From IMG/VR virus record IMGVR_UViG_3300033148_004783, positions 1-48,881 of that record: 48,881 bases of DNA. One strand, 5' to 3'. Positions 5,372-47,398 of this stretch are shown here, piece after piece (positions within the stretch are counted from its first letter, which is position 1; each line of letters starts with the position of its first letter). The notes below the pieces were generated by a model. It saw only the letters and a program-made list of their open reading frames with translations, made no database searches and had not been told where the DNA came from. The translations under genes were made by a program, and so were the position numbers. Source of the DNA: a virus.

Positions 5372-5689
5372 TTATTCTTGCTCAGCAAAAATATTGTATT
5401 GGAATATGCAATGATGAAAATTAGTTTCGTCAGATATTAAGTCTAGTCCTATTCCCAGATACTCCCCAGCATCATCCATAAAGACAAGTTCCTTGTGACG
5501 ATCCCTTGTAACAATTACTACTTGCCCGTCAAACAAGTATACGTCACCAATTTCGGGAATTCTCTTTCTTAAACTGGCTAGTTGGCATTCAAGTTTATAT
5601 TCTTTATTTCTCAAATCACTGAGTTCTGTTTTTATCTGTTCAATTTTCTTCTCAGAATCCTTTATGTTAATCCAATCCCCAGTATTCAT
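5372..5689 (-). CDS. Tandem paralog A: coiled coil plus small beta domain
   Basis: 105 aa. Residues 10-45 form a coiled coil (KKIEQIKTELSDLRNKEYKL), followed by a small beta domain with GDVYLFDGQVVIV, an FMDDAGEYLG turn and a FQYNIFAEQE end. It is a clear duplicate of the next gene upstream: the same architecture, a shared FQYN-FAEQ C-terminus and an identical AAAGGAGTACAACAATG leader. No function is known. It lies directly upstream of the helicase gene, which suggests expression with the replication genes. Confidence 0.65.
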   Translation of the reverse strand: MNTGDWINIKDSEKKIEQIKTELSDLRNKEYKLECQLASLRKRIPEIGDVYLFDGQVVIVTRDRHKELVFMDDAGEYLGIGLDLISDETNFHHCIFQYNIFAEQE

Positions 5690-5701
5690 TGTTGTACTCC
5701 T

Positions 5702-6025
5702 TTATCTCTTATCCTGTTCAGCAAACACATTATATTGGAATATATAATGATTAAAATCACCATCCTCCGGCAGTAAATCTAATACTTTCCCTAGTAGTTC
5801 TCCGTCATCACCCATAAAGGCAATGTCATTATGGTGGTCGTTTATAACAATTACTGTATCCCCATCAAACAAGAATACGTCACCAACTTTGGGAATTTGT
5901 TTGCTTAAGTTGGCTATTCGACATGTAAGTTGGTATTCTTCATTCCTCAAGTCGCGAAGTTTTTTCTTCATCTGTTTAATTTCAGTTATAGTAGCTCTCA
6001 TGTTAATTGCACCCTCAGTATTCAT
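5702..6025 (-). CDS. Tandem paralog B: coiled coil plus small beta domain
   Basis: 107 aa. Built like its downstream neighbour: a helical coiled-coil half (ITEIKQMKKKLRDLRNEEYQL), then a beta domain with GDVFLFDGDTVIVI, FMGDDGELLG and a FQYNVFAEQ end. The copies differ at many positions, so the duplication is not recent, although the ribosome binding leader is unchanged. The GDV-FDG pattern hints at an SH3-like or barrel fold. Function unknown. Confidence 0.65.
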   Translation of the reverse strand: MNTEGAINMRATITEIKQMKKKLRDLRNEEYQLTCRIANLSKQIPKVGDVFLFDGDTVIVINDHHNDIAFMGDDGELLGKVLDLLPEDGDFNHYIFQYNVFAEQDKR

Positions 6026-6037
6026 TGTTGTACTCCT

Positions 6038-6397
6038 TTATCTCTTCAGTGTGTTGCAAATGTTCTTGGCCTCCATAACATTATTAGGCCAACTGTTTGA
6101 GACATTAAAGATCATTTCATTGGTGAAGTCAGGGTACTTATTCTTAATTTTGTTGATTATTGCTTGTTGGTCTGCTGTAGGCATGGGAAGACTTTTCTTA
6201 AAACCCTCCCTCCACTGGACCTCCGGCTCAGCGATTACCCACTTATAGAAGATTTCCCCCATCTCCCATATTTCACTAAGTTCAATCTTGTCAGCAATGG
6301 CCAACTCAACGGCACGGTTAAGGACATTCTGCCTGATAATCTGTCGGTCTTTCTTATCCCAATCCACTTTTGAAGTGTTACCATTATTGTAAGGCAT
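6038..6397 (-). CDS. Hypothetical helical protein
   Basis: 119 aa from the ATG at 6397, which has AGGGGAATTACT before it; a longer frame to 6424 lacks this support. The sequence is mostly helical: a DKKDRQIIRQNVLNRAVELA segment with an acidic and aromatic helix (EMGEIFYKWVIAEPEVQW), a linker, and a second helical part ending in EAKNICNTLKR. Similar helical modules occur in uncharacterised phage proteins encoded near recombination or replication genes. No function is assigned. Confidence 0.6.
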   Translation of the reverse strand: MPYNNGNTSKVDWDKKDRQIIRQNVLNRAVELAIADKIELSEIWEMGEIFYKWVIAEPEVQWREGFKKSLPMPTADQQAIINKIKNKYPDFTNEMIFNVSNSWPNNVMEAKNICNTLKR

Positions 6398-8765: not shown

Positions 8766-9227
8766 TTATAGGGGATTTAAGGGCTCAAAGATCACTACCT
8801 TCACGTCGTCCAGTGATTTCAGAGGTGCTTCGATTATCCCCTTGACCTGCCCCCAATCCAGACCGCCTAATCCACACCCTAATGGTGGGATAGCAATTGA
8901 ACGGATGTTGTATTCCCCAATCACGCCTACCAAAGACTTCATACCGGAGTCAATATCTTCTATGAGGCTTTGGCGACTCCAGTGTCGTTTGGTGGGAAAG
9001 TTGACAATATAGTATGGCCTGAGTAAGTCTCCATTTCGGTGGACAAACATCTTTCCTGGCTGCACTTCGCCTTTCTGACAGGCTTCTGCGTATGCCGTGA
9101 AATTTTGTGCGAATGCCTGTTTAAATTGTCTCGCTAGACCCCTTCCCATGACACCAACACAATTCACAGCGTTGACGAGAGCCTCAACATCTTCACACAG
9201 GATATCCCCTCGTTTGAATTCAATCAT
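8766..9227 (-). CDS. Macro-domain protein (ADP-ribose binding/hydrolase-like)
   Basis: 153 aa starting MIEFKRGDIL, with GAGG about 8 nt upstream; longer frames to 9257 or 9299 overlap the previous gene. Macro-domain signatures are clear: the Asp of RGDIL, the loop NAVNCVGVMGRGLARQF, the strand YYIVNFPTK, and the phosphate loop PPLGCGLGGLDW. The NCVGVMG(R/K)G(L/I)A form is typical of DarG-like and ALC1-like macro domains that remove or bind ADP-ribose. In a phage it may reverse ADP-ribosylation by host defences such as DarT, or process ADP-ribose derivatives. The toxin partner DarT is not seen next to it. Confidence 0.85.
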   Translation of the reverse strand: MIEFKRGDILCEDVEALVNAVNCVGVMGRGLARQFKQAFAQNFTAYAEACQKGEVQPGKMFVHRNGDLLRPYYIVNFPTKRHWSRQSLIEDIDSGMKSLVGVIGEYNIRSIAIPPLGCGLGGLDWGQVKGIIEAPLKSLDDVKVVIFEPLNPL

Positions 9228-9243
9228 GCCGGCATACCTCGAA

Positions 9244-9504
9244 TTACGGAGATTCATTTTCCCAGATTTGGTATAAAATTTCAATCCCTTCCATAGCATA
9301 CAGCTTGCGATCTATCATTTCATCAGTGCAACCTTCCATGCCCACCTCCAAGTATACCTCATAACAGACAGCGCTCGAGGAAACCGCACAATTTTTCTGT
9401 GTGCCAACTATTCTTTTGGTGAAGCGTCCCAGATACGGTTGCCACTGCCACCCCAGAAACGTCGCACGTTCCATCACCATGGTTTTCATCTCAGCTACGG
9501 TCAT
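9244..9504 (-). CDS. Hypothetical protein, 86 aa
   Basis: Starts MTVAEMKTMVMERATFLGWQWQ from the ATG at 9504, preceded by CTGGGGGCC; a TTG-initiated form to 9546 would overlap the upstream gene. Residues 1-15 form a helix, followed by a basic and aromatic segment (PYLGRFTKRIVG), a beta stretch with two Cys, and an acidic C-terminal helix. No family recognised. It lies 16 nt upstream of the macro-domain gene and is probably co-translated with it. Confidence 0.5.
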   Translation of the reverse strand: MTVAEMKTMVMERATFLGWQWQPYLGRFTKRIVGTQKNCAVSSSAVCYEVYLEVGMEGCTDEMIDRKLYAMEGIEILYQIWENESP

Positions 9505-9523
9505 TTTGGCCCCCAGGTCACTA

Positions 9524-10162
9524 TTAGCAGCACAGAACCGAGTCAATGAGCGTCTGTAAGTGGAGATAATTTACTGAGTGTGCGTAAAGAGCGGTGAATC
9601 CTGCCTCCACCTCGCTACCTTTCTTACCCAGTAGTGACGCAGCAGTGGTAGCTTGTAGGGCTGCTTTCAATCCATAATGTTCTCGGAGTATCAGTGACGA
9701 GTCCGCAAGAAGGTTATTCAAGTGCATGGATGTCTTTGCACCCCCATTGGAGGACCTGTCACTGCCCTCAAACCACCGCTCCGCCCACAGCACAAAAACA
9801 GGTTCGTCAGAGCATGTAAGCGCACAGAGTATAGCAATTTTTACTCGCTGCTCTGGGGTTATGGCTGGCAAGGGAAGTTCTCGTATGATACGTACACGTT
9901 TTGATCCACCTTTGAGTGGTCCAGAAAGTTTGATCTTTCCCGATGCTTCCACTTCCCAAAGTCTCGCTGGGACAAACCAGTTGTGGATGGGATTCAGGAA
10001 TACAGCTATTTCTGGTGAATCGTACCAGTGAATATATGAATTGGAACACAGCGAGTCCCTAGTACCACATGCCTCTCGTACCATGCCTGGAGCCCAGCGG
10101 CACTCATTGCACGACCCTGGACGGGTTTTGGCATGGCGGTCTGTCAGTTTGTACTTAATCAT
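9524..10162 (-). CDS. DUF7666-like protein, paralog 1 of 3
   Basis: 212 aa. The conserved N-terminal domain has MIKYK(L)TD, RWAPGMVREA, YIHWYDSPEIAVFLNPIH, RLWEVEASGKIK, GGSKRVRIIRELPLP and EQRVKIAILCAL. This order matches a phage family of unknown function that I recall as DUF7666, whose members usually carry alanine-rich C-terminal repeats. Here the C-terminus is an Ala-rich helix ending LQTLIDSVL. GGGAG lies before the ATG. Two further copies follow upstream with spacers of about 9 nt. No catalytic residues can be pointed out. Confidence 0.65.
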   Translation of the reverse strand: MIKYKLTDRHAKTRPGSCNECRWAPGMVREACGTRDSLCSNSYIHWYDSPEIAVFLNPIHNWFVPARLWEVEASGKIKLSGPLKGGSKRVRIIRELPLPAITPEQRVKIAILCALTCSDEPVFVLWAERWFEGSDRSSNGGAKTSMHLNNLLADSSLILREHYGLKAALQATTAASLLGKKGSEVEAGFTALYAHSVNYLHLQTLIDSVLCC

Positions 10163-10171
10163 GATAGCTCC

Positions 10172-10810
10172 CTATTTCAGAACTGAGTCAATTATCGTCT
10201 GTAATTGGAGATCAGTTACCTTGTTCGCGTAAACAGCGGCGGCGGCAGCCGTAGTCTCAGCCCACCCGCTACCGGGGAGTTCGGTTACCGCAGAAGTGGC
10301 TCGCTGTGCTGCTGACAGATTGTGGGGAATCGATAAAGGGAATTTATAGTTTGACACAAGGCTGTTCAAATAATCTAACATATACTCACCTCCGCTGATA
10401 GATTGATCTGTCCCCGAAATCCACCGCCTTGCCCACTTCACCCAGATTTCGTCATCGAAACACGTTCCTGCACAGAGTATAGCAATCTGGATTCGTTGAT
10501 ATGGGAACATGAGTGGCAAGGGAAGTTCTCTTATGATACGTACATGCTTGGACCCGCCTTTGAGTTGTCCATCATACTTGATCTTACCAAATGCCTCAAC
10601 TTCCCAAAGCCTAGCAGGGTAAAACCAACAGTGGATGGGGTTCATAAATACGGCTATTTCGGGGGAATCATACCAGTGTATGTAAGCATCAGTACACAAC
10701 ATGTCACTAGTGCCGGTTGCCTCTCTCACCATGCCTGGGGCCCAGTGGCATCCGTTGGAGCAAGTGAGGCGAGTCTTTGAATTGATATCTGTCACTTTGT
10801 ACTTAATCAC
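10172..10810 (-). CDS. DUF7666-like protein, paralog 2 of 3
   Basis: 212 aa, starting at a GTG with AGGAAG 5 nt upstream. It keeps the family blocks of its neighbours: HWAPGMVREATG, YIHWYDSPEIAVFMNPIH, RLWEVEAFGKIK, GGSKHVRIIRELPLP, an AILCAGTC helix, and an Ala-rich end (TTAAAAAVYANKV then LQTIIDSVLK). The central part after about residue 130 is the most divergent. The GTG start differs from the ATG of the other two copies and could lower its expression. Function unknown. Confidence 0.65.
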   Translation of the reverse strand: MIKYKVTDINSKTRLTCSNGCHWAPGMVREATGTSDMLCTDAYIHWYDSPEIAVFMNPIHCWFYPARLWEVEAFGKIKYDGQLKGGSKHVRIIRELPLPLMFPYQRIQIAILCAGTCFDDEIWVKWARRWISGTDQSISGGEYMLDYLNSLVSNYKFPLSIPHNLSAAQRATSAVTELPGSGWAETTAAAAAVYANKVTDLQLQTIIDSVLK

Positions 10811-10819
10811 AGTAGCTTC

Positions 10820-11515
10820 CTATTCCAATACAGAGTCAATTATCCCCTGTAAGTCTAAGGTAGGCTGATTGGCATCCCTCAATGCAATGTGAGCACCGAT
10901 AGCGGCAACAGCGGCTACGCGGGTTGTCTTCCAGCGATCCTGTAGGTCTTCTGTTGCCGCGATTGCCGCCGTTAAAGAGGAAAAAACCTCATCATGCCGA
11001 ACAAACTGATACACGTCGGATTGGAGATATACCTGAAATAACCCATTGATGGAGTCCTGGGTCCGATCTGTTCCATCCAACCAACGGGTTGCCCATGTTT
11101 TCCAAACACCTCGGAAAGATGAAGCCCGGTTTTTATTGCCGTCAAAAACCCATAGTAGATCACAGCAGGCCATGGCACATCGTATGGCAATCTCTGCACG
11201 TTGTTTGGGCTGTATGGCCGGCAGAGGCAACTCTTTTATGATACGTACACGTTTGGAGCCCCCCTTGGCTTGACCATCCATTTTGATCCGACCGGAGGCT
11301 TCGATTTCCCAAAGTCTCAGAGAATGAAACCTGACGTGGATGGGATACATGAGCACCGCTATTTCTGGTGAATCGTACCAATGGATAAACGCGTCAGTGC
11401 ACAACTCACCACCCCTGCCCGCTGCTTCTCGTACCATGCCTGGAGCCCAATGACACTCATTAGGGCAATAGGGCCGCGTTCTTGAATTGATATCTGTCAT
11501 TTTGTACTTAATCAT
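10820..11515 (-). CDS. DUF7666-like protein, paralog 3 of 3 (longest)
   Basis: 231 aa. Family blocks present: HWAPGMVREAAG, FIHWYDSPEIAVLMYPIH, RLWEIEASGRIK, GGSKRVRIIKELPLP and AIRCAMACC. It carries an insertion of about 15 residues (WVFDGNKNRASSFRG) before the WATRWLDGTDR motif and an Ala-rich C-terminus ending LQGIIDSVLE. As the first translated copy it may be the founder. Runs of Ala-Ala pairs in the last third suggest a long helix. Confidence 0.65.
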   Translation of the reverse strand: MIKYKMTDINSRTRPYCPNECHWAPGMVREAAGRGGELCTDAFIHWYDSPEIAVLMYPIHVRFHSLRLWEIEASGRIKMDGQAKGGSKRVRIIKELPLPAIQPKQRAEIAIRCAMACCDLLWVFDGNKNRASSFRGVWKTWATRWLDGTDRTQDSINGLFQVYLQSDVYQFVRHDEVFSSLTAAIAATEDLQDRWKTTRVAAVAAIGAHIALRDANQPTLDLQGIIDSVLE

Positions 11516-11543
11516 CGTACATGGTCCTCGAGATCACACCGTG

Positions 11544-11750
11544 TTAATCCGAAGGGTCGATTGTTTCCAGGATGGGGTCATAGTTGTCTGGCTCTTTCCG
11601 AGCCACGAGGTCCTTTGCCAGAGCTTCAATAGCCCTCTTGGTGTTTTTCTGCTTACGGGCAGTGCTCCTCATTTTGCCAAGCAGTGCTCTCATTTTATGA
11701 CGCAAGAGCATAATTCGCACGTCGGTTTCTGGGTGGTGGCGATCATTCAT
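11544..11750 (-). CDS. Hypothetical small basic protein
   Basis: 68 aa, with AGGAAC upstream of the ATG. The centre is strongly basic and helical (HKMRALLGKMRSTARKQKNTKRAIEALAKDLVARKE), the end acidic (DPILETIDPSD). This would suit a small nucleic-acid or RNA-polymerase-binding factor, but no family is recognised. It lies between the DUF7666-like array and a Cys-rich gene. Confidence 0.5.
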   Translation of the reverse strand: MNDRHHPETDVRIMLLRHKMRALLGKMRSTARKQKNTKRAIEALAKDLVARKEPDNYDPILETIDPSD

Positions 11751-11767
11751 GGGATGTTCCTAGTAAG

Positions 11768-12109
11768 TCAACGGCTATTCTGAAACTGTTTGTACAATAA
11801 CTGTTTGTACAATTTCTTGACATTCTCGTGGAACTCGATTGGGTGTACCCCCCAGTGGGGGTCTTGCAAACAACTAAACGTGGGATCAATCAATTTCCCA
11901 GGGCAATGTAAGCAGTTATGCGACCTCATGCTATAATTGCAAAAGAAACAAGAATTAAAAACTGAATTTGAACGAAATCCATTATCCCAGAGCCATTTAT
12001 GTTTCAACCTAGGCACAAAATAACCGTCTGGGTCTTTTTTCACTTCGCTAACGATATAATCCCACATTTCAATGTGGTATTTCCATGTTTCTTCCAGTGT
12101 TAAATTCAT
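11768..12109 (-). CDS. Cys-rich phage protein, paralog E1
   Basis: 113 aa starting MNLTLEETWKYHIEMWDYIV, with GGAGTATCAAATC before the ATG; a longer frame to 12205 is unsupported. After the helical start come a CFFCNY pair, a CLHCPG pair, then LIDPTFSC and a C-terminal helix. The four to five cysteines probably bind zinc. Related proteins with the TLEE.W..HI.MWD start and two CxxC pairs are common in phages, without known function. A paralog lies at 13691-14029. The DNA for WKYHIEMWD holds an exact palindrome CCACATT-TC-AATGTGG (12062-12077) also present in the paralog. Confidence 0.65.
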   Translation of the reverse strand: MNLTLEETWKYHIEMWDYIVSEVKKDPDGYFVPRLKHKWLWDNGFRSNSVFNSCFFCNYSMRSHNCLHCPGKLIDPTFSCLQDPHWGVHPIEFHENVKKLYKQLLYKQFQNSR

Positions 12110-12211
12110 GATTTGATACTCCAACAGCATAACAGAACATGACGTAAGGGGCTGCCAGGGAAGCAATCTCCGATTGCCTGTGTGGTGAACAGCCCCTACG
12201 GTCACACACTG

Positions 12212-12556
12212 TTAAGAGGTAGGACATACTTCTGTTGCCCTCTGGGGCCGAACGCCTGTCTCAAGAGCATGTAGTGCCATCTCGTGCATCTTGGCCGCAT
12301 GATCCAACACCCAGTCCCTTTGCGCCTCACTGACCGATATGGGGTACTTGGTGTCCTCATAGGTGATATGGCCATCTGCCAGCCGCATGATAGCCTTGTA
12401 GGTGGTGTCAAGCTGTGCACGATACTTGGTCAAGAGCATCGCTGCATTCTTGTTTCCGTCCTCTGGGTGGTAGATAACCTTTCGCCGCTCCCTGCGTACT
12501 GCGATGCCCATCTCTTTCAACTCTGCTACTGTCAGTTTTTTGATCTCGTCACCCAT
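12212..12556 (-). CDS. Hypothetical protein with possible SAP/HeH-like N-terminus
   Basis: 114 aa from the ATG at 12556; a TTG at 12571 is an alternative. Residues 5-25 (KKLTVAELKEMGIAVRRERRK) resemble the helix-extended-helix or SAP motif that binds DNA, but the match is short. The remainder is helical (KYRAQLDTTYKAIMRLADG, then SVSEAQRDWVLDHAAKMHEMALHAL). It is preceded by a plausible sigma70-type promoter at 12600-12628. Function unknown. Confidence 0.5.
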   Translation of the reverse strand: MGDEIKKLTVAELKEMGIAVRRERRKVIYHPEDGNKNAAMLLTKYRAQLDTTYKAIMRLADGHITYEDTKYPISVSEAQRDWVLDHAAKMHEMALHALETGVRPQRATEVCPTS

Positions 12557-12599
12557 GGTTAGTGCATCCAAAAAATCATATATTTACCCGTATGCCTAA

Positions 12600-12628
12600 A
12601 GTGTAGCACACACCGTCTGGGGCGTCAA
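12600..12628 (-). promoter_or_regulatory. Putative sigma70-type promoter (TTGACG-N17-TACACT)
   Basis: On the minus strand TTGACG (12628-12623) and TACACT (12605-12600) are separated by exactly 17 nt and lie about 45 nt upstream of the ATG at 12556. The position, in a gap between two genes, fits a promoter for the genes at 12556 and below. A 29-codon GTG-initiated frame (12576-12665) overlaps it and is judged less likely. Confidence 0.45.
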
Positions 12629-12684
12629 GTACAAAATCGAGACTATCCTTGATTCTTCTCGCCACTAATTCTCTCTTTTGCCCT

Positions 12685-13017
12685 TCATCGCCCGCTTTGG
12701 TAGCAGTTAAGGTCTGCCAGTTTGTACTGGCCGTCTTTGATACGTTGCCGCACTTGCTCGGAGTTGGCGTCCAGGAAGCAATTGAGATACTTCATTGTAG
12801 TGGGGTTGTAATCCCAGTATTGAGCATCGAGCACTGTTCGCTCGCCGGAGCAGAGGGAGGGTTTGAAAGCAATGGTTGATTGGCATGACTGAAAGTAGGT
12901 TCCCTCAGTTGTGTAGATAATAAACTGGTCCGGTATGGGGTTTCCGGTACTCCGTGAGCGCATGTTTTCGACTCTGGGGCTCATGGTTGGGTGTGTTGCG
13001 TTGTGCCTGGCGATCAT
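12685..13017 (-). CDS. Hypothetical small phage protein
   Basis: 110 aa from the ATG at 13017, which has AAAAGGACAAG upstream; a longer frame to 13131 has no support. The centre reads DQFIIYTTEGTYFQSCQSTIAF, then RTVLDAQYWDYNPTTMKYLNCFL. A strand ending in FQSYxSxIA followed by WDYSxTTxKYxxxFL is a recurrent pattern in small phage proteins of unknown role. The C-terminus (EQVRQRIKDGQYKLADLN) is an amphipathic helix. It lies just downstream of the first clamp-like gene. Confidence 0.55.
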   Translation of the reverse strand: MIARHNATHPTMSPRVENMRSRSTGNPIPDQFIIYTTEGTYFQSCQSTIAFKPSLCSGERTVLDAQYWDYNPTTMKYLNCFLDANSEQVRQRIKDGQYKLADLNCYQSGR

Positions 13018-13130
13018 GGTCTTGTCCTTTTCCAAAGAGTGAAAACTCGCCCGTCTTACAGTCCACATTGGATGCCGCCAAGGCTCCCCGGACACGCGGG
13101 CGAGTTGCGGAGAAACGGCGGAGCTTGGCA

Positions 13131-13670
13131 TTAGAGTGTAAAGGGCATAAGAAGCACACGGACCTGAATCTGGTCTACCTCGGCAGTAAACATGACCGGA
13201 TCGTCTTGGCGGCCGTAATGAATCGTCCAGGGAACGTCTAGTTTATCCATTGCCGCGAATGTCTTGGCGAAGCGGGTTAGGGATATCATGAGACCGTGCT
13301 GTGAGAACACCTGTTGAACGGCGTCTTGCCAGAGGTGGCAACCGTGCGGGGGGACCTCTGCTTTGTTGGGGTGTTGGGGGATACAGGGTTTCCAGTTTGG
13401 AAAACTCTGGCCATCCGCCTTGGCGGGTATAGCACGGAACTCTCGACCGATTTTGACAAGATCGTAAAGCCCCGGGGCTATGGGCAGGTCGTCTGGGGCG
13501 AGACATGTGATGAGTTGGCAGCCGTCTGTGGCCGTAATCTCACGTTGGAGTAGTTCTAGCCACTCAAGGGCGTACTGTTTGTTCCCCAAGCTAGGTGTGG
13601 TTTTGAGCAGTTGAGCGATACCTGAATGCAGTACACCGTGGTCTTCGAGTAGTGTGTGTTTTTCGTTCAT
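13131..13670 (-). CDS. Short sliding-clamp-like protein (DnaN-like), paralog 1
   Basis: 179 aa with GAGGAGAAACTACC before the ATG. Three parts line up in order with the second and third domains of bacterial DnaN: REITATDGCQLITC (residues 43-56) with the ATDGhRL motif; DGQSFPNWKPCIP (86-98) with the DGxFPDYxxxxP motif at the domain boundary; and FAAMDKLDVPW (138-148) plus PVMF and a final VRVLLMPFTL with the last helix and the MPMRL end. Bacterial DnaN is about 370 aa with three domains, so this protein could hold at most two and would need three copies to close a six-domain ring. Alternative: a clamp-derived protein with another role. Confidence 0.55.
   Translation of the reverse strand: MNEKHTLLEDHGVLHSGIAQLLKTTPSLGNKQYALEWLELLQREITATDGCQLITCLAPDDLPIAPGLYDLVKIGREFRAIPAKADGQSFPNWKPCIPQHPNKAEVPPHGCHLWQDAVQQVFSQHGLMISLTRFAKTFAAMDKLDVPWTIHYGRQDDPVMFTAEVDQIQVRVLLMPFTL
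13215..13268. repeat. 54-bp tract identical to 14208-14261
   Basis: Direct repeat lying inside the first clamp-like gene; it encodes the AKTFAAMDKLDVPWTIHY segment. It is identical over 54 bp to the second clamp-like gene, whereas flanking sequence differs clearly. This looks like recent recombination or gene conversion between the paralogs. Confidence 0.85.
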
Positions 13671-13690
13671 GGTAGTTTCTCCTCACAAAT

Positions 13691-14029
13691 TCACTTCTCC
13701 ACAAAATCTTTGTAAATAGCCATGACGCGTTTGTGGAAGCCAATGGGATCGCTTTCATAACAAGGACGGTACAGACAAAAAAAGGTGGGGTCTATGAGTC
13801 TTGGTGGACAAGCTGTACAATCCACCAACCCACGTTGCTGTACATTGTATTCACAAAAAAAACAATTCTTTCGCACCTTGATTTCATGTTGGAGACACCA
13901 TTCTTTTTTTAAATCCTCCACGCCGCGGTGGTGTCGCTTGCTGTCGCGGCGGCGAGTTCTGATCTCTGAGACAATCCAATCCCACATTTCAATGTGGTAT
14001 TTCCAAGCGTCATCCAGTGTGAGTTTCAT
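13691..14029 (-). CDS. Cys-rich phage protein, paralog E2
   Basis: 112 aa with an excellent site (TTAGGAGGAAACCGCT) before the ATG. It starts MKLTLDDAWKYHIEMWDWIV, then a basic linker, a CFFCEY pair, a CTACPP pair, LIDPTFFC and a helical C-terminus. It is the paralog of the gene at 11768-12109. A clamp-like gene lies on each side of it, so the duplication may have involved a block containing a Cys-rich gene and a clamp-like gene. Zinc binding is likely; function unknown. Confidence 0.65.
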   Translation of the reverse strand: MKLTLDDAWKYHIEMWDWIVSEIRTRRRDSKRHHRGVEDLKKEWCLQHEIKVRKNCFFCEYNVQQRGLVDCTACPPRLIDPTFFCLYRPCYESDPIGFHKRVMAIYKDFVEK

Positions 14030-14114
14030 AGCGGTTTCCTCCTAATAATGCGCCCGGCCGTATCCGATGTGGACTGAAAGCCGGTCGCATCAGGAAAAGA
14101 GACAGAATCTGGTG

Positions 14115-14636
14115 TTAGGGTGTAAGTGGCACATAGGACGGAAGAATCACGCGAACATGGATTTGGTCCACCTCGGCAATGCATACGATCGGCTCCTTTC
14201 TGCCGATGTAATGAATCGTCCAGGGAACGTCTAGTTTATCCATTGCCGCGAATGTCTTGGCATGTTGGGTCAGGGATACCAAGAGACTTCGCTGTGTGAA
14301 TATCTGTTGGACGACCTCTGACGAGACGCCGTGTGTGGATTGGGGAATACCAGCTTTCCATTCTGGAAAATTCTGGTCATCAGAGGCGGCCGATATAAGG
14401 CGGTACTCGCTGCCGATTTTGGCAAGAGTGTAGACCCCCGGAGGTTTGCAGAGATCGGCTGGGGCGAGACAGGTAACGAGGTGGCAGTCGTCTAAGGCCG
14501 TAATCTCCCGCTCTCGCAATTCCACACACCCAAGAGTGGACCGAGCGTTTTGCGGAGTAGACGCGGTCTTGAGAAGACGACCAATTCCGGGATGCAGTAC
14601 ACCGTTGTTTTCGAGCAGAGCTGGTGTTTCGTTCAT
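14115..14636 (-). CDS. Short sliding-clamp-like protein (DnaN-like), paralog 2
   Basis: 173 aa from the ATG at 14636, which has AAGGAGACACCAC upstream; the frame is open further but unsupported. It aligns end to end with the gene at 13131-13670: the MNE..LLE..GVLH.GI start, an REITALDDCHLVTC strand, DDQNFPEWKAGIP and FAAMDKLDVPWTIHY. It differs from the clamp pattern more than paralog 1: ATDG has become ALDD, and the C-terminal MP motif is replaced by ILPSYVPLTP. If both fold as clamps they might form a mixed ring. An 11-residue gap before the last third separates the copies. Confidence 0.5.
   Translation of the reverse strand: MNETPALLENNGVLHPGIGRLLKTASTPQNARSTLGCVELREREITALDDCHLVTCLAPADLCKPPGVYTLAKIGSEYRLISAASDDQNFPEWKAGIPQSTHGVSSEVVQQIFTQRSLLVSLTQHAKTFAAMDKLDVPWTIHYIGRKEPIVCIAEVDQIHVRVILPSYVPLTP
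14208..14261. repeat. 54-bp tract identical to 13215-13268
   Basis: The second copy of the identical tract, in the second clamp-like gene and in the same frame and direction. The direct-repeat distance is 993 bp, so recombination between copies could delete or duplicate the intervening Cys-rich gene. Confidence 0.85.
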
Positions 14637-14652
14637 GTGGTGTCTCCTTTGT

Positions 14653-14847
14653 TCAATGCGATTCGGATAACAATGTGTTTGCTGCTGGACCCGCCTGGGT
14701 GGCAGCCTCCATAAGATTGTTGCCTGCCACATGCGAAATCGGCTCAGCTTCAAAATTGATCTTCGCCCACTTGCCACAGCCGTGCTCACTGCCTCGGCAC
14801 TCATCACGGAAAAGATTGCAGGCCAGACACTTCTGCCAGATAGCCAT
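14653..14847 (-). CDS. Small Cys-rich protein
   Basis: 64 aa with GGAGGGTGAGTG before the ATG. Four cysteines near the N-terminus (KCLACNLFRDECRGSEHGCGKW) could bind zinc; the tail is Ala- and Ser-rich and probably flexible. It ends 16 nt before the second clamp-like gene, and its coding sequence overlaps that gene's ribosome binding region. No family recognised. Confidence 0.5.
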   Translation of the reverse strand: MAIWQKCLACNLFRDECRGSEHGCGKWAKINFEAEPISHVAGNNLMEAATQAGPAANTLLSESH

Positions 14848-14909
14848 CACTCACCCTCCACTTCGGTAATGTTGTCCAGTTAGTCCCCATTCCTGGGGGA
14901 AGATGCAAA

Positions 14910-15287
14910 TCAATTCTCCACAATCTCCAGAACAATCATCTTCTGGGCCAGGAGCCACTTACCCCCCTGGGACTCCGGCCGGACGTAGGTCTCATAATCC
15001 GCTACACAGACCTTGGCCCACACCCGGGTCTCTTTCTTCGGTTTCGTTTTCAGGTGAGGTGCCTCTGGCTTGCAGAGCACATGCCAGCCGGGCCGGTAGG
15101 CGTAGCCCGACGTCCTATGTGCCTCAGCGTGCATCCAGAGGCCAACAGGGATGCGTTGAGACCTATTGATAAATAGGGACCCCAGACTGCCGTCCTTCCG
15201 CCTACGCAGCAGCTTGTATGCGATACGCATCAACTGTCGCTCCAGTAAAGTTGTCTTCTGTTGGGTGCCATTGTCACTCCTGGACAT
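14910..15287 (-). CDS. Conserved phage protein of unknown function
   Basis: 125 aa if started at the ATG 15287. The core reads AYKLLRRRKDGSLGSLFINRSQRIPVGLWM, AEAHRTSGYAYRPGWHVL, APHL, TRVWAKVCVADYETYVRPESQGGKWLLAQKM. This order (LLR.RKDG.LG.LFIN, then RPGWH, then RPESQGG) is one I recall from many uncharacterised phage proteins. An internal ATG at 15230 has a better ribosome site (GGAG, 9 nt) and may be the real start, giving 106 aa beginning MRIAYKLL. No enzymatic motif can be named. Confidence 0.65.
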   Translation of the reverse strand: MSRSDNGTQQKTTLLERQLMRIAYKLLRRRKDGSLGSLFINRSQRIPVGLWMHAEAHRTSGYAYRPGWHVLCKPEAPHLKTKPKKETRVWAKVCVADYETYVRPESQGGKWLLAQKMIVLEIVEN

Positions 15288-15303
15288 CCTGAATCGTCTT
15301 GAT

Positions 15304-15786
15304 CTATGCGCACAAGTGCACTCCATTCAGTTGGAAGTGCCGCCACAAGGACTGGCCGTCAATCCAGCCCATGTAATGAATCACAAGGTGCAGAAAGACC
15401 GAACAAAAGATCGGTCCATGCCATTGCCCGTGGCATATAATGTGGGCCAATTCGTGTAGGGCAATGAGTCGTGTCACCCAGTCGGCACGGGCTGGGAACT
15501 TCAGCGTGAAGGTACCATCATGCTGGTTCCGACTACAGCATGCCGTCGTCATCCGGCGTCTGCTGGTTTGGATTTTAAACTGAATTTCCCCGAAACGCTC
15601 CACGAACCAGCGGTCTTTCTGCACCATCCGTAGGAAGGCACACAGCTTAGCCTCATCCAGGGGCTGTTCTGGATTCTCCCTTCGGAAAGCCCACTCGGCC
15701 CAGTAGACCTTACTCCGTTGGTAGTCACGCCTAAGTGGCTTGAACGCTTTTGCGTCCCAAATGGCTGATTTCGGGTTTGAATCCAT
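15304..15786 (-). CDS. TIGR04338-like zinc metallopeptidase
   Basis: 160 aa from the ATG at 15786, 1 nt past the upstream stop. The pattern RDYQRSKVYWAE, a long helix, DRWFVERFG and LIALHELAHIICHGQWHGPIF matches the TIGR04338 family of putative metallohydrolases as I remember it. The HELAH motif gives two His ligands and the catalytic Glu (H111, E112, H115), and the HGPIF His 123 is a likely third ligand, as in SprT-type peptidases. It may cleave a host or phage protein in the cytoplasm. There is no signal peptide. Confidence 0.7.
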   Translation of the reverse strand: MDSNPKSAIWDAKAFKPLRRDYQRSKVYWAEWAFRRENPEQPLDEAKLCAFLRMVQKDRWFVERFGEIQFKIQTSRRRMTTACCSRNQHDGTFTLKFPARADWVTRLIALHELAHIICHGQWHGPIFCSVFLHLVIHYMGWIDGQSLWRHFQLNGVHLCA

Positions 15787-15787
15787 G

Positions 15788-16159
15788 TCAGTCCCCCGTC
15801 TCGGCTTTGGCAATGGCTTCGCGACATTCCCGCACGAACGCGCAGCCGTCCCAACTGTTGCCGTCGGCCTTGCAGGCATCAGCAAATGCGATGACTTTCT
15901 CGCAGGCGGCCCGCAGGTCCGGGGCGGCGGCAATGGAGCGTGTGTCGGCTTCCTTCGGGTAGCAGCGACGGCACGGTTGTGCTTCTCCCTGCCTAAAGCC
16001 GTTTGCCCACGCGTCCGCAAGCCACATTCCTATACGCTCGACGCACGGCTCCGATAAGGATTGTAACAGATCGTAATCGGTGTCCTTCAGGTCAACACCG
16101 TGACCCACGGCGTCATCGCAGAACGCAGCGATAACTAGTTGCTTCGATGTGGTACGCAT
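15788..16159 (-). CDS. Hypothetical protein
   Basis: 123 aa with GGAGGTTAC directly before the ATG. A helical first half (DLLQSLSEPCVERIGMWLADAWANGF), a CRRCYPKE pair that may bind zinc, and an Ala-rich end (IAAAPDLRAACEKVIAFADACKADG) similar to small proteins in many phages and prophages. The leader contains the element shared with the regulator gene at 21813 (see findings). Function unknown. Confidence 0.5.
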   Translation of the reverse strand: MRTTSKQLVIAAFCDDAVGHGVDLKDTDYDLLQSLSEPCVERIGMWLADAWANGFRQGEAQPCRRCYPKEADTRSIAAAPDLRAACEKVIAFADACKADGNSWDGCAFVRECREAIAKAETGD

Positions 16160-16165
16160 GTAACC

Positions 16166-16183
16166 TCCAACTATCGGTTGTCA
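16166..16183 (-). promoter_or_regulatory. Shared leader element TGACAACCGATARTTGGA, copy 1
   Basis: The same 18-nt sequence with one change occurs at 21833-21850. Both lie directly upstream of a minus-strand gene; here it follows a terminator-like hairpin and precedes GGAGGTTACATG. It may be an operator or an mRNA 5' element. Confidence 0.4.
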
Positions 16184-16215
16184 AAAGCAGCTAGCACTCG
16201 TTGAGTGCCAGCTGC
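16183..16215 (-). terminator. Rho-independent terminator candidate
   Basis: On the minus strand GCAGCTGGCACTC pairs with GAGTGCTAGCTGC (one mismatch, loop AAC), followed by TTTT. It lies just after the stop of the gene at 16230-16433 and before the gene at 15788-16159. The U-run is short, so termination may be partial. Confidence 0.5.
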
Positions 16216-16229
16216 TGCTCTGGATTAGG

Positions 16230-16433
16230 CTAGAAGCGTTGGTGTTTGATCCGCTCGATGTACTGCGCGTCGTAGTAGCCGCCATTCGGAACACCTGCGT
16301 CGCACGGTGTGATATTCCAGTAGATTCGTTCGTTGTCGATGTGGGTGTCAAATTTCCAGAAGTTGTAGCCGTTCTCCGTCTTGACGAGCGTCGCTCCCTT
16401 AGGTTGATCTGTTGCGTTGTTCTCGGCTGTCAT
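16230..16433 (-). CDS. Hypothetical small protein
   Basis: 67 aa with a strong GGAGGTCCTCACT site before the ATG at 16433. The sequence has a polar N-terminus (MTAENNATDQPKG), then GYNFWKFDTHIDNERIYWNITP, and a PNGGYYDAQYIERIKHQRF end. It has no recognised family. The upstream leader holds one copy of the dispersed 42-bp double-hairpin repeat, and a terminator candidate follows the stop. Confidence 0.5.
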   Translation of the reverse strand: MTAENNATDQPKGATLVKTENGYNFWKFDTHIDNERIYWNITPCDAGVPNGGYYDAQYIERIKHQRF

Positions 16434-16468
16434 AGTGAGGACCTCCAAAATGGGATGGCTAAAGGCCG

Positions 16469-16510
16469 CTAAGCAGCAAGCTGCTAATATTGGCACCTGA
16501 CGGTGCCTAC
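16469..16510. repeat. 42-bp double-hairpin repeat, copy 1
   Basis: Contains AGCAGC-AA-GCTGCT and GGCACC-TGAC-GGTGCC side by side. It matches 47357-47398 at 41 of 42 positions. It lies between two minus-strand genes, downstream of one stop and upstream of the next ribosome binding site. A third hairpin GCACTC-AAC-GAGTGC follows at 16512-16526. Confidence 0.85.
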
Positions 16511-16552
16511 AGCACTCAACGAGTGCCAGCGACTCTGCCTCCTGGGCCACCC

Positions 16553-16747
16553 CTAGTTGCACTCAATCCGGGCATTGTAGGCACAGGCAGCATCGCCCAT
16601 CTTACGTAGGCACTGCTCAGCGGCCTCCTGGCTACGGTGCTGATGGCCACAATCCCAAGTAACCGCATACTCTTTCCCGGGGCCGTTGGGGCCGTCTACG
16701 ATTGACCAACTGTTGATATCACGGGCCACACAAGTGTAGGTCTTCAT
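16553..16747 (-). CDS. Hypothetical small protein
   Basis: 64 aa from the ATG at 16747, which has AGGAGATCGGATC upstream. Sequence: a beta start (KTYTCVARDINSWSIVDG), a WDCGHQHRS segment in which a Cys and two His might bind metal, then a helical SQEAAEQCLRKMG and a final ARIECN. The CGHxHxSxxxAxxC layout is frequent in small phage proteins that look like degenerate zinc ribbons. Function unknown. Confidence 0.5.
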   Translation of the reverse strand: MKTYTCVARDINSWSIVDGPNGPGKEYAVTWDCGHQHRSQEAAEQCLRKMGDAACAYNARIECN

Positions 16748-16758
16748 GATCCGATCTC

Positions 16759-16821
16759 CTAACAAAGTGCCATGTATGCGATTACTGTGAGATACCAGAT
16801 GTACCGCCAGTCAGTTGACAT
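16759..16821 (-). CDS. 20-aa hydrophobic micropeptide
   Basis: MSTDWRYIWYLTVIAYMALC: one short membrane-spanning stretch rich in Trp and Tyr. GGAGACTGACC lies just upstream of its ATG, and its TAG overlaps the AGGAGA ribosome site of the next gene. Because the gap between neighbours is otherwise empty, translation is plausible. No homolog can be judged at this size. Confidence 0.35.
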   Translation of the reverse strand: MSTDWRYIWYLTVIAYMALC

Positions 16822-16824
16822 CGG

Positions 16825-17079
16825 TCAGTCTCCGTCAATCAGGTCGAGTCTCACAGATTCGCTGTCATCCAGGTCAACGTACCAACAACCCATCTCGCCC
16901 ACAACCGTCCACTGCGATACATCGCCGGGCTCAGCCATGAGGGGCTGGATAGCGGCCACGCAGTCGTCCGGCCGGGGACATAGCGGCATGGTGAGGCAGT
17001 CTGGTGTCCCGTACGGCAAGCCGTCTACCAGCCACGTGGCGTGCCACGTGCGCATCTGTCGTCGCCAATTAGTTGCCAT
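16825..17079 (-). CDS. Hypothetical protein
   Basis: 84 aa from the ATG at 17079, with GAAGGGAACAAACT upstream. The N-terminus is basic and Trp-rich (MATNWRRQMRTWHATW), the middle holds CLTMPLCPRPDDC, and the C-terminus is acidic (CWYVDLDDSESVRLDLIDGD). It is the first gene after the promoter at 17120-17148. A longer frame (to 17253) would cross that promoter and is rejected. Function unknown. Confidence 0.5.
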   Translation of the reverse strand: MATNWRRQMRTWHATWLVDGLPYGTPDCLTMPLCPRPDDCVAAIQPLMAEPGDVSQWTVVGEMGCWYVDLDDSESVRLDLIDGD

Positions 17080-17119
17080 AGTTTGTTCCCTTCTAGGCGG
17101 CACCATTGCTGCTACTAAT

Positions 17120-17148
17120 AGTATAACACATAAGGCCAGGGATGGCAA
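17120..17148 (-). promoter_or_regulatory. Near-consensus sigma70-type promoter (TTGCCA-N17-TATACT)
   Basis: Minus-strand TTGCCA (17148-17143) and TATACT (17125-17120) are separated by 17 nt. Each hexamer matches the bacterial consensus at 5 of 6 positions or nearly so. The A/T-rich run upstream (a stretch of T on the minus strand at 17149-17165) could act as an UP element. Transcription would start near 17113 and reach the ATG at 17079. Confidence 0.6.
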
Positions 17149-17530
17149 CAAAAAAAACAAAAAATCTTTGATTGCCCACCAAGCCGAGCCCTCCTGGGCA
17201 GCCATCCTAGCAGTCATCCCGGCATCCCCACCGCCCGTGATACGGTGCCGCACCTTAACGCAGGTCTCATGTTCCCGCCATCCTACCCGGGTCTGCTCGC
17301 CCTAACCTGCTAGGGGCTCTAGACTTACCTCCCTCAAGCCCCTCCCGCGTTAAGGGCTCCGCCCAGTGACACCCCACCCCCAGGGGGGAGGTGCGACCCT
17401 TAACATTATTGAGGATAGGGGAGGTATACCCGCTTGTAGAATTTTGTATATTTTTCAGCGAAAAGCTCGCTCGAAGCATTTTATTGAAAAAGCTACGCTT
17501 GAAAATCAATGAAATTTTCGCTTAAATTTT
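17149..17530. other. Non-coding spacer, part of 650-nt gene-free region
   Basis: No convincing gene on either strand. Contains a pyrimidine-rich stretch, a run CCCCCAGGGGGGAGG near 17386-17401, and an A/T-rich part from about 17450. It lies between the terminator of the polymerase operon and the promoter of the next block. Confidence 0.5.
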
Positions 17531-17559
17531 AATTTTAAAACCCGACGGTCCGTGTCGGG
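17531..17559 (-). terminator. Rho-independent terminator of the polymerase operon
   Basis: On the minus strand CCCGAC and GTCGGG form a 6-bp stem around a 7-nt loop, followed by TTTTAAAATT. It lies about 175 nt after the last gene of the operon (stop at 17733). The position, stem and U-rich tail all fit. Confidence 0.65.
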
Positions 17560-17652
17560 AACCCTAAATTTCATTCTATTTTACCATTTCGGAGGAATTG
17601 TTGCTAAGTAATTGTGCTATAAAGAGTTAGAAAAATTTTCCATCCATGAAGT

Positions 17653-17688
17653 AAGCAAGCACCCCACATCCATGCGGGGCGATTGCTT
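17653..17688. other. Two-tier hairpin downstream of the RmlC-like gene
   Basis: AAGCAA (17653-17658) pairs with TTGCTT (17683-17688), and inside it CCCC (17662-17665) pairs with GGGG (17676-17679) across small internal loops. No U-tract follows on the minus strand. It may protect the 3' end of the operon transcript or act with the terminator that follows. Confidence 0.45.
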
Positions 17689-17732
17689 GTGCCACTGTTC
17701 TGGCTCGTTGGATTTAAAAATTCTAACAATAT

Positions 17733-18278
17733 TTAAACATTTTCCCAGAGTTGCTTACCTAGTGGAAACCAGGGGATATAAAACTTTCCATCTGACTTGT
17801 TCTTTTGGCTATCCATACGGATAACTGTAGTTTGGATGATAGGTATCCCATGTTTGTCAGTACCACCAACATTTCGTTCTCTTGTAGAGAATATCATGAC
17901 ATCTGTATTTGGCTTTAGTGTTTTGTAGCTCATACAGAAGCCTGGGGGAATCCACAAGATATTGGGGTATTTCCAATACAAAATAAATTGGTGAACTTTC
18001 TTAGAAAATTCTGGTTCTTCACCCTCTAAGTCGGTTATTCTTATCAGTTGAACAATGGCTTGGCCTTTAATGACATAAATAAATTTTCCCTTCTTTCGGT
18101 GTCCTCTCCAAGAACTGATATAACCAGTCTTTTTTCTGCGGGATATATCAAAATATTTAATACCACATCTGTATGGATTAAATTTTTCCACACGTGTAAT
18201 ATAGCCATCGCGGCCTTCAAAGTGTTTTCCTGCTATTACCATAGGGGTGTCCGGGAGTTGCTCTAGCATATCACTCAT
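17733..18278 (-). CDS. RmlC-like cupin (dTDP-4-dehydrorhamnose 3,5-epimerase family)
   Basis: 181 aa from the ATG at 18278, with GGAGAAGAA upstream. Family features: an early F.D.RG-like region (DGYITRVEKFNP), SSWRGHRKKGKFIYVIKGQAIVQLI in the cupin core, then LYWKYPNILWIPPGFCMSYKTLKPNTDVMIFST and the end WFPLGKQLW. In RmlC the His of the RG(L/M)H block is catalytic; here it is RGH. Such proteins isomerise nucleotide sugars in the cytoplasm. A phage copy could alter surface sugars or a glycosylated base, but the other enzymes of a rhamnose route are absent, so a sugar-binding cupin is equally possible. Confidence 0.65.
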   Translation of the reverse strand: MSDMLEQLPDTPMVIAGKHFEGRDGYITRVEKFNPYRCGIKYFDISRRKKTGYISSWRGHRKKGKFIYVIKGQAIVQLIRITDLEGEEPEFSKKVHQFILYWKYPNILWIPPGFCMSYKTLKPNTDVMIFSTRERNVGGTDKHGIPIIQTTVIRMDSQKNKSDGKFYIPWFPLGKQLWENV

Positions 18279-18289
18279 TTCTTCTCCTA

Positions 18290-20158
18290 TCATTTAATTT
18301 CTGAGTATGAGTGTCCTGAGTTAATCTCTACTTCGAACGGAATTGAGAGTGAGACAGCATTGACCATGCAATCTCTTAATGTACTTTTTACTTTCTCAAC
18401 ATTCCTTGAAGGTGCTTCAAGTACCAGTTCATCGTGTACAATCAGGAGTACCTTTAATCCAGCTCTATTTGCCCTACAAGCGGCGATCTTCATCTGGTCG
18501 GCACTGAACCCCTGTATCTTGAAGTTAAAGGCTTGGCGCTCCATCCTGGCCTTCTCAGCGGGACGTGAGAACCTGTTGTAACGGAGTCTACGCCTCCGTC
18601 CCATCATAGTCGTTACATAGCCTTTATTTTGCAATGTCTTAGTGGTAAGAATTATAGCCGGTTTAACGTCCTGGTAGGTATTGTGAAAAGCATCAATCCA
18701 CTCTTGTGCAAGTTGCTTTGATATATTCTGACGGTTCGATATGCCGTATGCAGAGGTTCCATAAACAATCGGAAAGTTAATGCCATTTTTGCCTTTATCC
18801 CTTTCAGAGGTAAAACGGCTTTTCGCTTCTTTATGTTCAGGAGTATCATTTTCCAGACTTTTCTCTGACAGACCAAGGTTGAAAGCAGAGTTGGCAGTCA
18901 TTAGATGCAGATCAAGGTTGCGATTAAAAGCATCAATCATCGTAGCATCTTTAGTTATCTCAGCCAGAACTCTAAGTTCCTGGCCAGAGTAGTCACCCCC
19001 AACAAGACAATGGCCCTCTTCGGCTATAAAGATGCTACGGTAATCGAGGTCTGGATATCGAGCAACAAAATCAGGGTCTTTGGCTCTATTTGGCAATTGC
19101 TGTAGATTCGGCTTTGTGCAATTAAGGCGACCCGTCTTCACAATACCGAAACTGGGACGCATCCTGCCGTCTTTATCTATCATATCCCATGCAGGTATAA
19201 CATAGCCATTCATCAACTTTGTAAGTTTTTTGTAGTCAGAAAGATAGCCTATGAAAGGGTGTTTATCCTTAAATCCGGCGAGAGTTTCTTTTCCCACTGA
19301 CTTCTTGCCTGAGGCTGTGGTTTCCTTGATGGAAAGTCCACATTTCTTTTCAATGATATTTACAAGTTGGTTATTAGAATTAAAGTTAACAGGGATAATC
19401 CGTTTTGCATCCCCAAAGATGGTATGCTGTTCTGATGCCTTCATCCCTATAGACTCTAACATTTTATCTTCTACTTCAATGATCTTTTCTTCTAGGTTTG
19501 ACTGTAACTTGAAAAGTTCACCAGTATCCACCTTGATACCATTTATCTCCATCTCAGCGTTAACTTGGACAAAAGGCATTTCTATATTGTAAAACAGGTG
19601 GTCCAAGCCCTGCTTTGTAAGCTGTGGTTTAAATAGCTTATAAAGCCTGTATGCCCAAATACTGTCATTTATGGCATATTCATAAAACTTATCCGAGTGT
19701 CTGCCACAGGAATCTGCATCTTCCCATTTACTGATATTAGATTCAGAAATGCCAAGAAGGTCTTTTGCTAAGACCTTGAGCGAATGTCTGTATCTATTCT
19801 CATCAAGTAGATAAGAAGCAATGAAAGTACAAAAATTGGTGCCATTACCCAAACTACCAGAATCTCCGGCAGATCGGTGAATGAAACGGTGCCAACATTT
19901 ATAATCAAATTTAAGATTATGAGCAATGAATTTATTACCATTGAAAATACCGCCAAGACACCTACAAATCTCTTCAACATGGGGATTCTCCCAAAGGTCT
20001 ACATAACAAGCCCTACTCCCATCCGCAAAACTCACACCCACTGGTTCCATGTCCAGATAAGATAGCCCTGTGGCTTCAAAGTCAAAGGCATATATTTCTG
20101 CCTCAACAGAAAACCATCGCTTAATTTCACTGGGCTTCTTTAGAATTGTCCTTTTCAT
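18290..20158 (-). CDS. DNA polymerase I (family A) with 3'-5' exonuclease domain
   Basis: 622 aa. Exonuclease motifs: FDFEATG (D26, E28), IAHNLKFD (D85) and YAINDS (Y161, D165). Polymerase motifs: TGRLNCTKPNLQQLP, motif A GDYSGQELRVLAE (D389), DLHLMTA, motif B RDKGKNGINFPIVYG (453-467) and motif C VHDELVL (D576). No 5'-nuclease domain is present. Motif A departs from the usual DYSQIELR, and motif B has an extra residue between its Lys and aromatic residue, with Pro in place of Gly. It overlaps both neighbouring genes by about 4 nt. It is the replicative polymerase of this phage and would work with the helicase and primase encoded at 3.2-5.4 kb. Confidence 0.95.
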   Translation of the reverse strand: MKRTILKKPSEIKRWFSVEAEIYAFDFEATGLSYLDMEPVGVSFADGSRACYVDLWENPHVEEICRCLGGIFNGNKFIAHNLKFDYKCWHRFIHRSAGDSGSLGNGTNFCTFIASYLLDENRYRHSLKVLAKDLLGISESNISKWEDADSCGRHSDKFYEYAINDSIWAYRLYKLFKPQLTKQGLDHLFYNIEMPFVQVNAEMEINGIKVDTGELFKLQSNLEEKIIEVEDKMLESIGMKASEQHTIFGDAKRIIPVNFNSNNQLVNIIEKKCGLSIKETTASGKKSVGKETLAGFKDKHPFIGYLSDYKKLTKLMNGYVIPAWDMIDKDGRMRPSFGIVKTGRLNCTKPNLQQLPNRAKDPDFVARYPDLDYRSIFIAEEGHCLVGGDYSGQELRVLAEITKDATMIDAFNRNLDLHLMTANSAFNLGLSEKSLENDTPEHKEAKSRFTSERDKGKNGINFPIVYGTSAYGISNRQNISKQLAQEWIDAFHNTYQDVKPAIILTTKTLQNKGYVTTMMGRRRRLRYNRFSRPAEKARMERQAFNFKIQGFSADQMKIAACRANRAGLKVLLIVHDELVLEAPSRNVEKVKSTLRDCMVNAVSLSIPFEVEINSGHSYSEIK

Positions 20159-47345: not shown

Positions 47346-47356
47346 ACCTAACACCC

Positions 47357-47398
47357 CTAAGCAGCAAGCTGCTAATATTGGCACCTGGCGGTGCCTAC
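47357..47398. repeat. 42-bp double-hairpin repeat, copy 2
   Basis: Matches 16469-16510 at 41 of 42 positions; the one change lies in the loop of the GGCACC/GGTGCC hairpin. It overlaps the last codon of the exonuclease gene and precedes a small minus-strand gene, the same setting as copy 1. Confidence 0.85.

Follow-up and report, generated by a model that had tools for sequence, protein, structure and literature searches.

Two paralogous genes and their setting

The genome studied here is that of an uncultivated phage, a virus record of 48,881 bases, and "the window" denotes this whole stretch. Its minus strand carries the two paralogous half-size genes reported in the initial annotation, which encode a divergent half-clamp-like protein of 179 aa (P1, positions 13131..13670) and its paralogue of 173 aa (P2, 14115..14636), identical to each other at 95/174 residues (~55%, E 2e-64 in a single comparison). 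Purine-rich ribosome-binding sites, GTGAGGAGAAAC and CAAAGGAGACACC, are located directly upstream of both genes, and the stop of P1 overlaps the start of the next ORF (12685-13131). The dN/dS between P1 and P2 was estimated at 0.29/0.55 (NG86) to 0.30/0.48 (YN00), that is, ~0.5-0.6, and thus both look like constrained coding genes. Within surroundings of ~70% identity, a 54-bp tract of P1 (AKTFAAMDKLDVPWTIHY, 13215-13268, minus strand) is identical to positions 14208-14261 in P2. A reading of this tract as a conserved functional core was dropped, because identity of DNA over 54 bp with 0 synonymous changes is likely to reflect local gene conversion between the two genes.

The genes had been described as a tandem, which is valid in that two paralogues are present; they are, however, not immediately adjacent, but separated by an unrelated gene for a 112-aa Cys-containing protein (13691..14029, minus strand) to which no family was assigned. 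A paralogue of this intervening gene is found at 11768-12106 (46% identity), and the duplication of P1/P2 is therefore probably that of a two-gene module. An alignment of the intervening gene identified no relatives in viral and genome contigs. This phage is rich in tandem duplications, including DNA-level repeats at 5376-6046 and 9533-11515. Three paralogous genes in tandem at 9524-11515 weakly resemble DUF7666, at a level below the cutoff, and a phage-encoded macro-domain protein (PF01661, E 8e-25) is found at 8766-9299.

The GC content is 0.48-0.56 across positions 9000-18000 and mostly 0.39-0.44 in the flanking regions that contain the core replication genes. This GC-rich stretch, possibly an acquired accessory island, includes P1 and P2 and differs in composition from the core replication genes. 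A 45-bp dispersed repeat (16466-16510 and 47354-47398, 95.6% identical) comprises the palindrome AGCAGCAAGCTGCT, TAATATT and a stem-loop GGCACC..GGTGCC; no other copy of its hairpin was detected in the window, and no exact match to its 5' part was found in viral contigs. The family A DNA polymerase previously noted in this phage is confirmed (18290..20158, minus strand; PF00476, E 2.6e-79), contains a 3'-5' exonuclease domain (PF01612, E 1e-11) and is a candidate partner of P1 and P2. Other genes in the window encode a DnaB-type helicase, a zinc-ribbon/toprim primase-like protein, an exonuclease and a small terminase.

Clamp-like regions and the half-clamps of phages

Residues 12-98 of P1 (13377..13637, minus strand) resemble domain 2 of DnaN according to hhalign comparison of P1/P2 with six full-length DnaN sequences. 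The ATDG motif (13521..13532, minus strand), initially ascribed to both products, is present in P1 (ATDGCQL), but the corresponding letters of P2 are ALDDCHL. In contrast, the claimed linker, FP(N/E)WxxxIP, is common to both proteins: FPNWKPCIP of P1 (13377..13403, minus strand) aligns at the position of DnaN FPDYRRVLP (241-249), and FPEWKAGIP of P2 (14343..14369, minus strand) is supported by both sequence and alignments. Residues 113-179 of P1 (13134..13334, minus strand), which end in LLMPFTL, resemble the C-terminal half of DnaN domain 3 in alignment and in the strand-helix-strand order predicted by AF2. The P-V element proposed for both proteins reads DPVMF in P1 and EPIVC in P2, and the MP end is, as had been stated, confined to P1, with P2 terminating in ILPSYVPLTP. 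The combination of an FP[DNE] linker and a hydrophobic-x-P C-terminal strand that characterizes half-clamps is thus present (FPNW/FPEW; LLMPFTL in P1), the latter element being weaker in P2.

A tblastn search with E. coli DnaN retrieved many phage proteins that match just the middle and the end of the clamp, hereafter half-clamps. Annotated phage examples are mostly 171-206 aa long, with a typical length class of 170-195 aa, and carry the labels "RusA-like Holliday junction resolvase," "DNA polymerase III beta clamp subunit" or "hypothetical." In these proteins, DnaN domain 2 runs straight into the C-terminal half of domain 3, and the sequence ends in MPMRL. All six half-clamps that we scanned are members of phrog_3007, with further similarity to phrog_947, a phage clamp family, and to the Pfam DnaN central domain; named members include Sodalis phage SO-1 gp7, Serratia phage Eta_0010 and Burkholderia phage BcepC6B gp31. 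A single query had relatives in 284 phage records, a few of which were full-length clamps. Half-size clamp-like proteins are, accordingly, already known and widespread in phages, and the novelty initially attached to half-size clamps does not hold, given that the same length and domain content recur in hundreds of phage records. Likewise, the proposed upper limit of two domains is better stated as 1.5 domains, namely, domain 2 and the C-terminal half of domain 3. The label "RusA-like Holliday junction resolvase" of phrog_3007, carried by the protein at L014:5079-5594 and by other members, looks wrong: these proteins are DnaN-like half-clamps with a largely intact peptide pocket. A literature search by title and abstract start returned no paper devoted to phage half-clamps, which by itself does not establish their absence from the literature.

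Searches for direct relatives of P1 and P2 were negative. Neither protein matched Pfam, PHROGs or NCBIfam up to E 10, and the phrog_3007 and PF02768 models matched nothing anywhere in the window. A PDB sequence search with P1 gave chance matches only. No relative was identified in the phage collection for either protein or in the plasmid collection for P1, and neither P1, P2 nor their alignment recovered relatives or an intermediate homologue in viral and genome contigs. Loci from phages whose polymerase or terminase is related contained no relative either.

For profile comparison, the half-clamp set was collected using E. coli DnaN and half-clamps, but not P1 and P2, as queries. Using hhalign, the P1+P2 alignment scored 23.8 over 133 columns against 15 half-clamps (200 column shuffles: mean 13.0, maximum 20.9) and 22.6 against 33 half-clamps, where 1/600 shuffles equaled the score and 0/600 the number of aligned columns; other paralogue pairs from the window scored at most 15.4 against the same 33 sequences. 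Against half-clamps merged with trimmed DnaN, the score was 23.3 over 132 columns (0/300 shuffles as high). Against six full-length DnaN sequences, it was 24.5 (0/300 column shuffles as high); the 94 aligned columns span domain 2, with P1 residues 12-107 aligned to residues ~133-259 of E. coli DnaN at 21% identity. The match to the C-terminal half of domain 3 comes from the half-clamp profiles. Reversed clamp profiles scored 9.5-12.6. Among 69 profiles built from fetched loci, 68 of them unrelated, the clamp profile ranked first, and the runner-up reached 21.4 across only 19 columns. With a home-made half-clamp HMM (HMMER), P1 scored 3.5 bits (23/20000 shuffles as high) and P2 5.7 bits (8/20000); across the ~71 ORFs of the window, P2 was the best match and P1 the second, and the best of 344 distinct unrelated ORFs from the loci scored 5.4. 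One MAFFT alignment shifted the C-terminal helix, and three other modes and the chosen subset alignment agree on the version used.

The comparison with DnaN profiles that had been suggested as a check scored above nearly all shuffles, but the hhalign probabilities were only 4-7% for the P1+P2 alignment and at most 12% for P2 alone. Given these probabilities and the absence of a match to any standard HMM, we regard the evidence of clamp relatedness as moderate and not as proof: it is borne out by the profiles, with first rank among 69 and co-linearity over ~130 columns, but not at the level of database significance. Because the clamp idea was chosen by a motif scan of the whole window, the chance estimates are somewhat weakened.

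Peptide pocket and predicted fold

In the beta-clamp, the dimer interface that joins two subunits into a ring is located in domain 1 and the first half of domain 3. The peptide pocket, as listed in one study, involves R152, L155, T172, G174, H175, R176, L177, P242, R246, V247, V360 and M362, together with N320, Y323, V344, P363, M364 and R365 (PMC11139829). All the residues in this list fall in domain 2 or in the C-terminal half of domain 3, the parts retained by half-clamps. Among 33 half-clamps, the listed positions R152 (33/33), L155 (31/33), H175 (30/33), P242 (33/33), Y323 (30/33), P363 (32/33) and R365 (30/33) are conserved, and R176, L177, V344 and M364 are variable; Y154 is also present in 33/33. 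Since the pocket is retained and the ring-joining parts are missing, a half-clamp would most simply be a free-standing peptide-docking module.

P1 and P2 retain the hydrophobic frame of the pocket, that is, L155, L177, P242, I at 248, P249, a hydrophobic residue at 360/361 and P363. At positions 152, 154, 175, 246, 323 and 365, they contain Q/R, A/T, C/C, P/A, L/L and T/T, respectively, so that of the signature R152, Y154, H175, R246, Y323 and R365 only R152 survives, and only in P2. Judging by these substitutions, P1 and P2 probably bind a different peptide or have drifted from peptide binding. A strict QLxLF-type clamp-binding motif is present neither in the family A polymerase nor in any other listed protein of the window, and the phage partner of P1 and P2, if any, would thus use another motif.

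Structure prediction, also suggested initially as a check, gave a clamp-like order of elements but no significant fold match. The AF2 model from P1 and P2 alone was uninformative (pLDDT 38, pTM 0.33); with 14 half-clamps added, pLDDT rose to 60.3 and pTM to 0.54, values of medium confidence. The predicted elements of the latter model are E6-8, H16-23, E37-41, E44-48, E52-57, E71-74, E77-80, E118-122, H124-142, E160-165 and E168-174. This order, b-a-b-b-b-b-b followed by b-a-b-b, is suggestive of that expected for clamp domain 2 minus its second helix plus half of domain 3. The added sequences bring the hypothesis along, and the model therefore indicates compatibility, not independent support; the input also leans toward the clamp hypothesis because the subset was chosen from trial alignments for lining up the AK-x-F helix motif. 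Foldseek searches with the better model against the PDB and a viral library gave nothing below E 0.001; DnaN structures matched only weakly (6ap4, E 0.68, TM 0.22), as did phage clamps, and TM was ~0.2 for the clamp matches.

The lack of a curated family match or a significant fold match, along with the absence of ATDG from P2, would be expected if P1 and P2 were unrelated to clamps and represented an undescribed phage accessory family, with convergent or chance motifs. The non-clamp profile that reached 21.4 points in the same direction, although its narrow match spanned 19 columns. We consider this possibility doubtful, albeit the most credible of the alternatives, in view of the shuffle, reversed-profile, cross-profile and within-window controls and the co-linearity over ~130 columns.

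Possible roles and comparison with known clamps

The reading that we prefer, with a probability of roughly 0.55, is that P1 and P2 are a duplicated pair of strongly diverged half-clamp relatives, probably a non-ring pocket module with shifted specificity. The analysis establishes the genes, their paralogy, the statistical resemblance and the residue changes; the fold, the lack of a ring, the binding of peptides and the identity of the partner are inferred. The fold would present the surface at which the beta-clamp holds the short peptides of its partners, and this surface would serve to bind the phage polymerase, some other partner in phage replication, or a protein of host replication or repair. 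With the pocket frame kept and the signature side chains changed, partner specificity has probably shifted, and the lack of a strict clamp-binding motif in the window was counted as fitting such a change. The duplication may have yielded two specificities or a heteromer.

Alternatively, P1 and P2 could mimic the clamp pocket and titrate host clamp-binding proteins, such as polymerases and repair or defense factors, without aiding phage replication. Half-clamps with a nearly complete pocket are common in phages that lack a family A polymerase, the Sodalis phage SO-1 record terms its copy a "possible moron," and P1 and P2 themselves lie in the GC-rich stretch unlike the core replication genes. 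However, the two proteins have lost most of the pocket signature residues, which makes binding of the canonical host motif unlikely unless the specificity has changed, and we consider this role improbable.

We do not favor a PCNA-like trimer or a mixed ring. P1 and P2 would in that case be ring subunits, assembled as a homotrimer, as a mixture of P1 and P2 or as four 1.5-domain subunits contributing six domains through pairing of their half-domains, and would serve as the processivity factor of the family A polymerase. The clamp-like sequence, the two paralogues and the polymerase gene ~4 kb away are compatible with this possibility, as is the co-occurrence of a half-clamp with a match to the family A polymerase model in 7/33 half-clamp phage records (6 above the cut-off), some of which may be fragments. 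Nevertheless, P1 and P2 lack the DnaN stretches that would be expected at the ring interface (domain 1 and the first half of domain 3), the polymerase lacks a clamp-binding motif, 26/33 half-clamp records do not match the family A polymerase model, and no clamp-loader gene was noted in an unsystematic look at the gene products examined. Taken together, a ring appears even less probable than host mimicry. Least likely of all is a six-domain heteromeric clamp for the family A polymerase made of two P1-P2 dimers, in which the half-domains would pair into a third domain.

If the preferred reading, that is, divergent half-clamp relatives outside a ring, is correct, P1 and P2 extend an apparently uncharacterized, mislabeled and widespread family to members too diverged for standard profiles and indicate that duplication and a remodeled peptide pocket are possible within it. 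The partner-binding pocket of the beta-clamp persists in half-clamps in the absence of the parts that would be expected to build its ring, and the question of what a clamp without a ring is for thus becomes directly testable.

Compared with the two-domain trimeric clamps PCNA and T4 gp45, P1 and P2 are similar in size class only; there is no sequence match, and their resemblance is to DnaN-type domains, of which they have 1.5. With DnaN (PF00712/PF02767/PF02768), the resemblance covers residues ~133-259 and 313-366 of the E. coli protein, but at 179 and 173 aa, P1 and P2 fall short of the three clamp domains and ~366 aa of DnaN, and without domain 1 and the first half of domain 3, a canonical ring is improbable. 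The phrog_3007 half-clamps are only ~10-21% identical to P1 and P2, which a normal scan with the family HMM does not recover. P1 and P2 also lack equivalents of RYYLNG, H175, R246, Y323 and R365, are shorter in the middle of domain 2 and occur as a duplicate pair. Because the family HMM and the pocket signature both fail to include them, we place P1 and P2 as a divergent variant resembling half-clamps and not as members of phrog_3007. Nevertheless, P1 and P2 share with this family the length class of ~170-195 aa, domain 2 and the C-terminal half of domain 3 in this order, the ATDG and FPxW..IP regions, the predicted strand-helix-strand C-terminus, the MP end (P1) and the occasional presence in phages with family A polymerases. 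Thus, P1 and P2 are probably a noteworthy variant and not a clamp of a new kind.
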